Below are positions 1 to 4,077 of a stretch of DNA of 64,000 nt, piece by piece. Positions within the stretch are counted from its first letter, which is position 1. Each line of letters begins with the position of its first letter. The notes under the pieces are model-generated. The model did no database searches, was not told the origin of the DNA, and was given only the letters and a program-made list of their open reading frames with translations. The stretch comes from Microbacterium faecale (GTDB taxonomy: Bacteria > Actinomycetota > Actinomycetes > Actinomycetales > Microbacteriaceae). The position numbers and the translations under genes are program-made. The DNA lies in the NCBI RefSeq assembly GCF_014640975.1, contig NZ_BMHO01000001.1, forward strand, positions 2,180,166 through 2,244,165, written 5' to 3'.

Positions 1-1098
1 CACCGCACGTGGCGCAAGATCTCCCGCGGTGCGGCACCGCACAAGGTCGCGCAGCATGGGGATCCACGTGTCGTCCTCCACGTCATGGAAATAGTTGTCG
101 CCGAGCCAGCCGGGATCCGGGTGACGCATCCGGCGTGCAATCACGTCGTCGGCGGTCCCCAGCAGTCCGCTTCCGCGGAACACCGTGTTGATGAGGGTCT
201 CGTCGACGCCGAACGTATCAAGCGCAACTACCGGGATGCCACGTGCGGCCGCCTCGATCGCGGCCGTGGAGCTGACCGTCACCAACCCCTCGGCGCGGTC
301 CAGGGCGCGCGACATCGGTTCGTACGACACGACGAGGTTTGCCGGCAGCGGTCCGAGTTCGGTGAGGAGATCGACGTATCCGTCCTCCTCGCGATGCGTC
401 TCGTGCTCCCCCGGACGCCCGCGCAGCTTGACGACGACGCGGGCATCCGGCGTCGCCTTCGCCGTCTCGACGAGGATCCGTGCCACGCGCCTTCGATCTT
501 CTCGCGCTCGCGGCACGATCGCCTGGGCGGCGAAGACGAGGTCGGTGCCACCCCGGCCCGCCGGATCAGCATCGGCGATCCTGCGAGCGAACGGCAACGT
601 CGCGAGCGCGAACCGCTGGTCGATGGCGCGTTCCTTCGCTAGGGCACGGAACTCACGCACCTCCCGATGGGAGTGCACGATCATCAGGTCGCATCGGCGC
701 CGGAAGTGCAGCGCGCGCCACGTCGCGGGTACCGAGATTCCCGGTAGTCCGGACACGATCACGGGGCACGGATCTCGTCGCGAGGCCTCCCGTGCGACGA
801 CGCGCGCGACCGGACCGCGCGCCGCCGCGACGACGACGTCGGCGCGCGCAAGCCGGGCGGGCAGGTCGGTGAACGACGCGCGTCGCGCCCGCTCGGGGGG
901 CAGCCCGGATCCGGTCAGCGCGGCACGGAGCTGCACGTCGCTGACGGCGACCTCCGTATCGAGCACCACGAGCTCACCGTCGATGCGTCGATCCGCGACG
1001 AGGGCGGCCGCCCACTTCACATAGGAGTCGGTGTCGGCGACCGCCACGACGCGTATCGCTGTGTTCCCCGCCGCGGTTCGTCCGCGTTGCGACGTCAC
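1..1098 (-). CDS. DUF6716-type putative glycosyltransferase, 3' end outside window
   Basis: The frame is open from a GTG at 1098 to the window edge (366 codons, no stop), so the C-terminus is missing. The GTG overlaps the neuB stop as GTGA, the coupling style used at every junction of this operon. The protein begins with a Rossmann-like segment (IRVVAVADTDSYVKWAAAL), has no signal peptide or membrane segment, and continues with a second domain containing VTVSSTAAIEAAARGIPVV, a pattern typical of GT-B glycosyltransferases and epimerases that bind a nucleotide sugar. I recognise it as the DUF6716 family often found with actinobacterial sialic acid genes. Inference: it transfers a nonulosonic acid or another sugar of the same glycan. 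The family name is from memory and the function is not established. Confidence 0.75.
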   Translation of the reverse strand, partial: MTSQRGRTAAGNTAIRVVAVADTDSYVKWAAALVADRRIDGELVVLDTEVAVSDVQLRAALTGSGLPPERARRASFTDLPARLARADVVVAAARGPVARVVAREASRRDPCPVIVSGLPGISVPATWRALHFRRRCDLMIVHSHREVREFRALAKERAIDQRFALATLPFARRIADADPAGRGGTDLVFAAQAIVPRAREDRRRVARILVETAKATPDARVVVKLRGRPGEHETHREEDGYVDLLTELGPLPANLVVSYEPMSRALDRAEGLVTVSSTAAIEAAARGIPVVALDTFGVDETLINTVFRGSGLLGTADDVIARRMRHPDPGWLGDNYFHDVEDDTWIPMLRDLVRCRTAGDLAPRAV

Positions 1099-1967
1099 GA
1101 CAGGACACGACGGAGCTTGGCCCGCGGGGCCTCCTCGCTCGCATAGACGTGCTTGACACCGTCGCCGCGCGCGGCCTCGATGATGCGGATGTCACGCACG
1201 AGCGTCGCGAGACCGCCGGGCTCGAGCGAGGCGGCGTGATCGGATCCCCACATCGTCCGATCGAGAGTGATGTGACGTTCGACCGCGACGGCGCCGAGTG
1301 CGACCGCCGCCAGCGAGATCTGCAGGCCACGTTCATGCCCGGAGTAGCCGATCGGAACGCCAGGGAACCGATCGCGCAGCACCGGGATCATCCGCAGGTT
1401 CGCTTCGGTCGGCTCGAGCGGATAGGTCGATGTCGCATGCAGGATCGTGAGGTCGCTCGTGCCGAGAGTGTCGACAGCTCGATCGATCTCCGGCATCGTC
1501 GACATCCCGGTCGAGAGGATGATCGGCTTGCCTGTGTCGCGCAGCGCGGCGAGCAACTCCAGGTCAGTGACGCTGGCCGAGGCAACCTTGTGCGCGACGA
1601 CATCGAGCTCCTCGAGGAACTCCACGCTCGGCACATCCCACGGCGAGGCGAACCATTCGAGACCGCGCATGACGGCGTGATCGCCGATCTCGATGTACTC
1701 GTCGCGCCCGAACTCGACGCGGTGTCGGTACTCGAGGTAGGTCATCGTTCCCCACGGCGTCTCTCGCGGGACGTCTCGCATGTGTTCGGGCGTGCAGATC
1801 TCCGGCGTGCGCTTCTGGAACTTCACCGCATCCGCCCCCGCGTCCGCGGCAACGTCGATGAGCTGTTTGGCGAGCTCGACAGACCCGTTGTGATTGAGCC
1901 CGATCTCCGCGATGACGAGGGCGGGCGCGCCCCCGCCGATCTGACGAGAACCGATCATGACGCTCAT
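1095..1967 (-). CDS. neuB: N-acetylneuraminate synthase family protein (NeuB), no SAF domain
   Basis: It condenses phosphoenolpyruvate with N-acetylmannosamine or a related hexosamine to form a nine-carbon sialic (nonulosonic) acid in the cytoplasm. The 290 residues form the NeuB TIM barrel: VIAEIGLNHNGSVELAKQLI near the N-terminus, DAVKFQKR, KVASASVTD, PIILSTGMS, ILHATSTYP, IGYSGHERG and a VERHITLDRTMWGSDHAASL metal/PEP-binding segment. The protein stops at APRAKLRRVLS, just where the C-terminal antifreeze-like (SAF) domain normally begins; well-studied NeuB proteins are about 340-350 residues. The ATG at 1967 overlaps the neuA stop (ATGA), and the stop overlaps the next GTG. The exact sugar (Neu5Ac, legionaminate or other) cannot be read from the sequence. 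Confidence 0.92.
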   Translation of the reverse strand: MSVMIGSRQIGGGAPALVIAEIGLNHNGSVELAKQLIDVAADAGADAVKFQKRTPEICTPEHMRDVPRETPWGTMTYLEYRHRVEFGRDEYIEIGDHAVMRGLEWFASPWDVPSVEFLEELDVVAHKVASASVTDLELLAALRDTGKPIILSTGMSTMPEIDRAVDTLGTSDLTILHATSTYPLEPTEANLRMIPVLRDRFPGVPIGYSGHERGLQISLAAVALGAVAVERHITLDRTMWGSDHAASLEPGGLATLVRDIRIIEAARGDGVKHVYASEEAPRAKLRRVLS

Positions 1968-3154
1968 CGGCGTCTCCCTTCTGGTTGCGCCGAAACTCCG
2001 ACGCGTGCGGCCAGGACCAACTCTGCGAGCTGACGGATGGCACCGTCGCCGCCCGATCGTGTGAGGATCAGCCGGGCCCGCGCTGACGCCTCGGGGTGCG
2101 CGGAGGGAACCGCGACGGGCCATCCGACGAGATCGAGCGCCGAAGCATCGTTGATGTCGTTGCCCACGTACGCGATACGCGCGAGAGGGACGCCCACTCG
2201 CTCCGCCCATTGCACGAGCGCGCGGCCCTTGTCCTCGACCGCGTGGATGACCTCCACGCCGAGCTTCGCCGCGCGGGCCGCGACGACCGGATTGCGCTCG
2301 GTCGACAGGATGAGGACCGAGATGCCTGCTTCCCGCAGCAGCCGTACACCCATCCCATCCGACCGGCTGACGCGCACCGACTCGGTGCCGTGCTGGTCGA
2401 CACTCACGGTGTCGTCGGTGTGGACACCGTCGAAGTCAGTGACGACGGCGTCGACGTCGATGAGCGCGTCGGCGGGATCCGGCTCGAGGTGCGCGATCGC
2501 GCGCGCGACCTCGAGCTGTGCCGGAGTGTCGATCTCGATCGCCGTCTCCGCCGGCACCTCTTGCGCGTCGAGGCGTCCGAAGAACCGATGGGCTGCGGCG
2601 CGGAATCCCGCGGCGTCCATGACGTAGAACGCCCCCGTCTCGACGAGCTGCGGCGGCCGGTCCTGGCGGCGCGGACGGTCACGGGCATCGTGTCCGGTTG
2701 GCACTGTCGCGCCCCCGCGCCTCGTCCAGACGAACTCGCCAGATGCGCGCGCGGAGAACACGCTGTCGGCGTCGCCGGAGGAGACGCGCGCCACGGCGTC
2801 GCGCAAGCCGGCTGCGGGGATGAAGGGACTCGTCGCCTGCAGGAACGCCAGGACCTGCGGACGTACGCCGCGGTCAGCGAGCACGTCGAGTGCGTGCAAC
2901 AGCGCGGACTCCGACGTCGCCGCGTCCCCCGCGAGCTCCGCGGGTCGCGCGACCAGCTCCGCGCTCCATGCACGCGCGGTCTGCGCGATCTGTTCGTCGT
3001 CGGTCGACACGACGACGTGATCGATGCCGGCGGCGCGGGCCGAGCGAACGGCGCGCGCCACGAGCGGAATGCCGCCGACGCGGGCGACGTTCTTCCCCGG
3101 AACGCCCCGGGACCCCCCGCGCGCGGGAATGATCGCGACGACACCCGACGTCAT
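1964..3154 (-). CDS. neuA: CMP-sialic acid synthetase fused to a HAD phosphatase (NeuA-HAD)
   Basis: A two-domain protein of 396 residues. Residues 1-225 are a CMP-N-acylneuraminate cytidylyltransferase: the CTP-binding signature IIPARGGSRGVPGKN (8-22), STDDEQIA, FLQATSPF and VETGAFYVMD. Residues 232-396 are a KdsC-like HAD phosphatase: nucleophile and general acid in DFDGV (Asp240, Asp242), LSTERN as motif II, a conserved lysine in DKGRAL and motif IV GNDINDASAL. The first domain activates the sialic acid with CTP; the second may remove a 9-phosphate or act as an oligomerisation domain, as in vertebrate CMAS, whose C-terminus is also HAD-like. All HAD acids needed for catalysis appear present. 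It starts at ATG 3154, overlapping the upstream stop, and ends in an ATGA overlap with neuB. Confidence 0.93.
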   Translation of the reverse strand: MTSGVVAIIPARGGSRGVPGKNVARVGGIPLVARAVRSARAAGIDHVVVSTDDEQIAQTARAWSAELVARPAELAGDAATSESALLHALDVLADRGVRPQVLAFLQATSPFIPAAGLRDAVARVSSGDADSVFSARASGEFVWTRRGGATVPTGHDARDRPRRQDRPPQLVETGAFYVMDAAGFRAAAHRFFGRLDAQEVPAETAIEIDTPAQLEVARAIAHLEPDPADALIDVDAVVTDFDGVHTDDTVSVDQHGTESVRVSRSDGMGVRLLREAGISVLILSTERNPVVAARAAKLGVEVIHAVEDKGRALVQWAERVGVPLARIAYVGNDINDASALDLVGWPVAVPSAHPEASARARLILTRSGGDGAIRQLAELVLAARVGVSAQPEGRRR

Positions 3155-4077
3155 CGCACCGCCCCTTCCGGCGTCACGAATGGCCGCTCGCGAACGACGA
3201 CCGGCGATCCCTCGAGCACTCGCCGCAGCGTCGTCGCGGCGCTCGTCGGCAGCGTCACGATCTCGCGCGGGACGCGTCGACCGGCGAGAACGAGTTCGAT
3301 GGGGAGTCCCGTACGCACGACCCGTACGCGCGGAAGCGCCGCGACCGCCGCGAGCACATCCTCTTCCTCGCGACGGTGCGGCAGATACGCCGTGTCGGCA
3401 CCGCGCGCGCTGTCTCGCACCCACTGTAAGTATTCTGTTCGCGGCATATGCCGGTCGACGACGCGTGCGCTACCCAGGATCACGCGATCCTCGCGCACTG
3501 CGGCAGCCGCTGGAGTCCTTGCGGCCGCCGCGCGCAGCCACTCGAACGCGTGGAGCTGGACTCGGACGCCGAGATCCCGCAGCCGACCCGCGCGCCCCTC
3601 GCCCAGGTCGAACGTTGTGAAGATCCTGGCGTCACCAGCGACGGCCCGCAGCCGGATCGCGTCGAGCGCGAGCGGCGCGAGGCGTCGTGCCACAGCGCGC
3701 TCGGCAACGCCCGGGCGCGTGAGCGGGCGCGCTCCAGCGATGGCGTCGACGAAGTCGAGAGTGGCGAGCCCGTCGTCGAGGAACGTGAGTCGGCGCGGGC
3801 GCAGCACGGTGACCGCCAGCCGGAACTGCCCCGAGAATCCGTCACCGACAAGCCAATGGTCGTGACGACGCAGCGTTCGCCACGGGATTCCGTAATAGCC
3901 GGCCTGCTCACCGAACAGGGCATCGAGTCGATTGAGCACACCTGCCGTCTTCTCGACCTGCGGTGCGAGTCGCGCCGCCAGGTCGACGCGAGTGCGATGG
4001 GCCGCGGCCCACTCCGCCGCGCCGATCATCTGCAGGGGCGATTCGACCCACGCCAGCGGCGCGTCGTCGTGCGGCAT
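3151..4077 (-). CDS. Sialyltransferase-like protein (polysialyltransferase / GT52 type)
   Basis: Probable glycosyltransferase that uses CMP-sialic acid to decorate a surface glycan. It carries the short motifs of bacterial sialyltransferases: ESPLQ near the N-terminus (residues 12-16), an acidic DDG (101-103) expected to hold the catalytic acid, a YLPHRREEE segment with the CMP-binding histidine (about 234), and a late LPTSAATTL serine/threonine motif. The ESPLQ opening is typical of the alpha-2,8-polysialyltransferase and LsgB/GT52 families. No transmembrane segment is seen. I chose ATG 4077 because GGAGGA lies four bases upstream; a GTG at 4128 would add 17 residues but sits directly against its Shine-Dalgarno. 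It is the first gene of the four-gene operon. Acceptor and linkage are unknown. Confidence 0.8.
   Translation of the reverse strand: MPHDDAPLAWVESPLQMIGAAEWAAAHRTRVDLAARLAPQVEKTAGVLNRLDALFGEQAGYYGIPWRTLRRHDHWLVGDGFSGQFRLAVTVLRPRRLTFLDDGLATLDFVDAIAGARPLTRPGVAERAVARRLAPLALDAIRLRAVAGDARIFTTFDLGEGRAGRLRDLGVRVQLHAFEWLRAAAARTPAAAAVREDRVILGSARVVDRHMPRTEYLQWVRDSARGADTAYLPHRREEEDVLAAVAALPRVRVVRTGLPIELVLAGRRVPREIVTLPTSAATTLRRVLEGSPVVVRERPFVTPEGAVR

Follow-up and report, generated by a model that had tools for sequence, protein, structure and literature searches.

A minus-strand operon of four genes lies at the edge of a 64,000-nucleotide stretch (the window) covering C1:2180166-2244165 of a 3.12-Mb Microbacterium genome (G000, completeness 99.19%). 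Its probable function is to synthesize Kdn (3-deoxy-D-glycero-D-galacto-nonulosonic acid) and transfer it to a wall glycopolymer of teichulosonic type, which would make the operon a pared-down form of a system already known in actinobacteria, a reading to which a probability of about 0.68 is given. In the proposed scheme ManA would supply mannose-6-phosphate, which a NeuB lacking the SAF (antifreeze) domain would condense with phosphoenolpyruvate (PEP) to Kdn-9-phosphate; a KdsC-type HAD domain in the product of gene 2 would dephosphorylate it, and the NeuA domain of that product would convert Kdn to its cytidine monophosphate (CMP) derivative, CMP-Kdn. The products of gene 1 and of the DUF6716 gene would move Kdn, or partner sugars, onto a lipid-linked glycan, to be exported and anchored by ABC-transporter and LCP proteins whose genes lie outside the operon. 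We infer from the genes and their relatives what is made, that it passes through a phosphorylated intermediate, which genes act as transferases and how the glycan is exported. The operon is laid out as follows.

3151..4077, minus strand: gene 1, putative Kdn/nonulosonate transferase of 308 amino acids, with ESPLQ, DDG, HRR and PxE motifs
3151..3154, minus strand: overlap of genes 1 and 2, ATGA
1964..3154, minus strand: gene 2, CMP-nonulosonate cytidylyltransferase (residues ~1-228; PF02348) fused to a KdsC-type HAD phosphatase (~229-396; PF08282)
1964..1967, minus strand: overlap of genes 2 and 3, ATGA
1095..1967, minus strand: gene 3, SAF-less NeuB (PF03102), proposed Kdn-9-phosphate synthase of 290 amino acids
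1095..1098, minus strand: overlap of genes 3 and 4, GTGA
1..1098, minus strand: gene 4, DUF6716 putative glycosyltransferase (by Pfam), cut by the window edge

A preliminary description of this DNA had reported four genes with 4-base overlaps at all three junctions, and had assigned three of them as NeuA-HAD, NeuB and DUF6716. The operon and its overlaps are confirmed, and the assignments hold in Pfam, with 67.9 bits for CTP_transf_3 and 35.2 for HAD in gene 2, 265.1 for PF03102 in gene 3 and 418.8 for DUF6716 in gene 4. The last gene is complete in the host genome at 418 amino acids, ending at window position -158, 158 bases beyond the edge. Chance is not the source of this set of open reading frames (ORFs), since NeuB orthologues of at least 76% identity are present in 39 of the 71 same-genus genomes compared (G000-G070; a kinship row is lacking for four).

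Much of the argument turns on NeuB. It has no SAF domain (PF08666 gave no match in the Pfam scan), and its top NCBIfam match, the N-acetylneuraminic acid (Neu5Ac)-synthase model TIGR03569, stops at 258.7 bits against a cut-off of 399.65, with the PseI model likewise short at 206.3 against 340.25. In the numbering of NmeNANAS, the Neisseria meningitidis enzyme, E25, K53, Q55, K129, S213, H215, E234, H236 and D247 are conserved in all 49 core-clade NeuBs; residues 53, 236 and 247, together with 134, are ones that we take to be important. In the same 49, S takes the place of T110 of NmeNANAS and W that of F112, and E134 is replaced by S in 44 and by C in 5. N184 is also S in 49 of 49, and likewise in 6ncs and the NeuBs with both SAF and isomerase domains, and hence is not diagnostic; the non-core side of the comparison comprised nine loci and three solved chains. 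The ligand list of NmeNANAS, as given in an excerpt of PMC6795526, includes residues 25, 55, 110, 112, 129, 213, 215, 234 and 314, and the same text has Arg314, in the antifreeze domain, positioning the N-acetyl group of N-acetylmannosamine (ManNAc), with R314A being inactive. The window NeuB is without the domain that carries this arginine in NmeNANAS. It shares with N. meningitidis SiaC/NeuB (1xuu) the barrel and the metal and PEP residues, but differs in the missing SAF domain, in residues 110, 112 and 134, and in being encoded in an operon that has a phosphatase. Judged by its sequence, it is not a usual Neu5Ac synthase.

NeuBs of another kind occur in the genus. In four genomes (G017, G022, G023 and G069) a different NeuB lies within ~0.1 kb of a PF02350 gene, and those of three of them (L162-L164, from G017, G022 and G069) branch outside the core clade with support of 100/99. 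The two that were scanned, L162 and L163, have SAF above cut-off and 397.3 and 398.0 bits to TIGR03569, just under 399.65. With a canonical kind of NeuB beside a PF02350 epimerase (SAF tested in L162 and L163), the three are probably separate loci of Neu5Ac type or legionaminic acid (Leg) type. In G068 a single protein (L075, 8233-10476) combines CBS, NeuB, SAF and a xylose-isomerase-like barrel, by Pfam, and shares W112; a relative, L074, has another NeuB of this kind, which resembles the isomerase-bearing NeuB of Serratia. Strains of Serratia marcescens with the KL1/KL2 capsule neuAB make mainly Kdn, at a Kdn:Neu5Ac ratio of ~20:1, according to an excerpt of PMC9000132, and their NeuB has an extra sugar-phosphate isomerase/epimerase domain that the window NeuB lacks.

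Sugar supply is the next consideration. The preliminary description saw no neuC and proposed looking beyond position 1; none lies directly outside the window edges, and the whole host genome has no PF02350 (NeuC-type) gene and no PF04131 match, PF07221 (N-acylglucosamine 2-epimerase, another ManNAc source) not having been searched. The absence was thus correctly noted, but it ceases to be a gap if the route leads to Kdn, for which it is expected, Kdn being built from mannose and not from ManNAc. A mannose-6-phosphate isomerase is found in the host genome through PF20511; PF01238 has no match there, and is a poor probe for ManA, having matched just 2 of 14 controls. Among the 39 core-NeuB genomes PF02350 is missing in 24, and both epimerase families are missing in 21. 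The pattern is clearest in genomes of the window's gene 1 subtype, 16 of 20 having neither.

The HAD part of gene 2, with motifs that we take to be DxD and GNDxND, gives 94.6 bits against the KDN-9-phosphate phosphatase model NF058599 (cut-off 180) and 87.3 against the KdsC model, also below cut-off; its closest PDB match is 3mmz. The NeuA half scores highest against PseF, at 110.1 bits where 205.7 are needed. The substrate of the phosphatase cannot be read from these scores or from its sequence. In G043, the nearest genome by NeuB (90%), the NeuA half is absent at this locus and the HAD part is kept as a frame of its own, with an apparent GTG start that overlaps the stop codon of gene 1 (L007/L065, 8743-9192); a second locus of that genome (L066) has a full NeuA-HAD and another NeuB. 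Outside actinobacteria, the same NeuB pocket is present in Hymenobacter and Methylomagnum, and in Azospirillum thermophilum with M at 134. The Methylomagnum NeuB adjoins a free HAD gene, whose best score is to NF058599 (153.7 of 180 bits) and which passes the general KdsC-subfamily cut-off alone, and that of A. thermophilum adjoins a NeuA-like/HAD fusion. A broader proposal, put forward tentatively and with more doubt than belief, is that SAF-less S110/W112/S134 NeuBs, spread over at least three phyla, could be a family of their own that makes Kdn-9-phosphate, usually with a KdsC-type phosphatase and with no need of the antifreeze-domain arginine on which NmeNANAS depends; Microbacterium would then have two alternative transferase cassettes and two kinds of Kdn wall polymer.

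The connection to a wall polymer comes from Streptomyces. GTDB genomes were scanned with L058, a NeuB of Streptomyces type, and the best 80 of at least 576 relatives were taken; all 80 loci are named Streptomyces. In 70 of these 80 there is a complete block of a polysialyltransferase (POLYST), GT2, DUF6716, NeuA-HAD, NeuB and a gene 1 homologue, the block being partial in the other 10 (contig ends were not checked for each); the same six genes are present in Nonomuraea. Identity between the window and Streptomyces proteins is 63-65% for NeuB and 47-50% for NeuA-HAD (seven loci each), 32-36% for DUF6716 (four loci) and 30% for gene 1 (one locus), and the NeuBs of both form one clade (support 100/99). 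For S. coelicolor, an excerpt of PMC2267785 labels SCO4877 hypothetical, SCO4878 glycosyltransferase, SCO4879 conserved hypothetical, SCO4880 transferase and SCO4881 polysaccharide-related, and names neuAB and 'teichuronic acid' for the region; in other papers SCO4881 is labelled NeuB (PMC2367054), SCO4873-4882 is a teichulosonic acid cluster controlled by PhoP (PMC13011467), and the teichulosonic acid of Streptomyces is a polymer of galactose and Kdn (PMC11481543, PMC7831098). The order of the Streptomyces block fits SCO4877-4881 and beyond, a region tied to Kdn teichulosonic acid, and on labels and order the four families of the window appear to recur within SCO4873-SCO4882.

From that region, known here by its labels, the window operon differs in gene order and in its missing partners: POLYST has no match in the host genome, and no GT2 homologue is among the ORFs flanking the operon (GT2 was not searched genome-wide). 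Genes for ABC-2, LCP and uridine diphosphate (UDP)-galactopyranose mutase at 1.54-1.56 Mb of the host genome are a possible export and ligation route. At L070 Kdn genes are near ABC-transporter genes, by Pfam, and L069 likewise has genes that fall in those clusters. Genes resembling polysaccharide pyruvyl transferases (PF04230) stand beside Kdn genes at L067 (12965-14749), from a different family, and at G043's second locus (L066, 10660-11748), which suggests pyruvate-modified polymers.

Several observations weigh against Kdn as the product. PF02350 is present in 15 of the 39 core-NeuB genomes, 12 of them of the POLYST subtype (12 of 17), and PF04131 (NanE) in 10. The HAD domain fits the KdsC model almost as well as NF058599, and in the L060 (Streptomyces-type) and L067 (f7) orthologues KdsC outscores it; the Hymenobacter NeuB relative has no annotated HAD alongside. 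The link to S. coelicolor, moreover, runs through the genus, the order of the genes and the labels in the literature, one of which says teichuronic acid. The counts for the two epimerase families also favor Neu5Ac, made as in animals from ManNAc-6-phosphate by way of Neu5Ac-9-phosphate and Neu5Ac to CMP-Neu5Ac, with the ManNAc-6-phosphate coming from an unrecognised epimerase; the HAD domain suits such a 9-phosphate route and the top NCBIfam match of NeuB is to a Neu5Ac synthase. This is nevertheless unlikely, given a host genome without a match to either family, a NeuB without SAF and with an altered substrate pocket, and the existence apart in the genus of SAF-bearing NeuBs that adjoin a PF02350 gene and branch elsewhere. 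Neu5Ac as product was set aside on the failure to find PF02350 and PF04131 in the host genome. The 'nonulosonic (sialic) acid operon' of the preliminary description thus stands as to class and falls in the Neu5Ac sense, given the TIGR03569 score, the missing SAF, the clade apart and the two unmatched families; NeuB probably belongs, as that description had allowed it might, to a clade with a different product.

Another nonulosonic acid, whether legionaminic, pseudaminic (Pse) or new, would account for the best score of the NeuA half being to PseF and for the neuC, legB and legC genes adjoining the Azospirillum NeuB relative. It is improbable as well, both the PseF and the PseI cut-offs being widely missed. 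Leg routes employ a PF02350-type epimerase, which was not found in the host genome, and a phosphatase, present in the operon, belongs to neither Leg nor Pse route. The tested neighbors encode FdhD, NUDIX and PTS proteins, not sugar dehydratases or aminotransferases. There is also the bleaker option that the operon, for want of POLYST and GT2 partners, is a silent or decaying remnant without a wall polymer. With POLYST unmatched in the host genome, and both transferases together in Streptomyces and in seven genomes of f7, f9 and f10, it has some appeal, but it is very unlikely in view of four open frames with tight overlaps, the kept NeuB residues, and the maintenance of the gene-1-bearing, POLYST-less form in 20 of the 39 core genomes.

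Returning to the Kdn operon and its putative transferases, gene 1 had been described as sialyltransferase-like, for which no significant sequence support was found, the label deriving from context and motifs. Pfam gives no match to E 0.1 and NCBIfam none to E 0.01. Its family has 22 invariant columns among 16 members, including E12, S13, P14, Q16, D101-G103, H234-R236, P259 and E261, and so ESPxQ, DDG, HRR and PxE motifs. Against the bacterial sialyltransferase families (GT52, POLYST), PF07388 was touched by 2 of the 16 (best E 0.15) and PF07922 by one (E 0.19), with four unrelated families at similar E-values; three more divergent members had no match at E 0.1. As a demonstrated sialyltransferase gene 1 was rejected, there being no credible Pfam or PDB match and the top PDB score (E 0.015) being to designed helical repeats. 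Profile comparison with POLYST gave probabilities of 0.2% for gene 1 and 0.5% for DUF6716. The putative transferase role of gene 1 is one of context, a homologue being within the Streptomyces block. Of 296 genomes from the phylum, 12 hold DUF6716 (PF20471) above its threshold, as does the E. coli control genome; the family is therefore by itself no marker and not confined to actinobacteria, and no literature on it was found. Both gene 1 and DUF6716 have close relatives that bear Microbacterium names.

Within the genus, core NeuB is accompanied by gene 1 in 20 genomes, by POLYST in 17, by both in none and by neither in two (G008, complete, and G030, 77% complete). Fisher p for the exclusion is 3e-9 within the 39 core genomes and 0.002 across the 71, values that overstate it because the trees put the split on one branch, as one or few historical events. 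The split is one change on each of the NeuB, NeuA-HAD and DUF6716 trees, which took in 18 of the 20 gene 1 genomes and 13 of the 17 POLYST genomes (17 and 13 for NeuA-HAD); its support is modest on the NeuB tree (89/87), and the DUF6716 tree has long-branch warnings. On these trees the pattern is that of a lineage split and not of repeated exchange. The seven genomes with gene 1 and POLYST together are of other families (three in f7, three in f9 and one in f10), and in G097, also of f10, gene 1 occurs without POLYST. One TGA lies inside each of the POLYST matches at G040:C1:1042090-1043523 and G060:C21:41031-42473.

Parallels to the proposed Kdn pathway are instructive. The Kdn pathway of Bacteroides thetaiotaomicron (Wang et al., 2008) reportedly includes a KdsC-type 9-phosphatase; the window HAD, by comparison, matches NF058599 under its cut-off and is fused to NeuA. 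The KdsA-KdsC pathway to 3-deoxy-D-manno-octulosonic acid (Kdo) has a like logic, an antifreeze-less synthase (an excerpt of PMC6795526 describes Kdo-8-phosphate synthase as without that domain) being followed by a HAD phosphatase, but the window uses the NeuB and NeuA families instead of KdsA and KdsB. Annotation places such SAF-less genes in the N-acetylneuraminate synthase family, so that a survey of sialic acids in bacteria might list Microbacterium among the Neu5Ac makers. If the Kdn reading is true, these actinobacteria make Kdn from mannose, and the product could be read from sequence features (no SAF, W112, a fused phosphatase and no epimerase). The four genes would also be a minimal set for studying the attachment of Kdn to the wall, including roles for the uncharacterised DUF6716 and gene 1 families. 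Sialylation had been called little described in Microbacteriaceae, which agrees with the literature search, no paper on Kdn in Microbacterium being among the matches listed and 'KDN-9-phosphate phosphatase' having no match; yet the genes are not rare, with the 39 same-genus genomes and at least 80 Streptomyces records.

The tested neighbors of the operon are a convergent NUDIX gene followed by a PTS permease on one side and an FdhD-family gene upstream. Further afield, on a plasmid of Methylomagnum ishizawai (L185, 2886-8498), a SAF-less NeuB and HAD have split transketolase-like genes and an aminotransferase as neighbors, which may point to an unusual nonulosonate-like sugar. On the A. thermophilum plasmid (L187, 1352-6944) it is the SAF-less NeuB together with its NeuA-like/HAD fusion that adjoins the neuC, legB and LegC-family genes.

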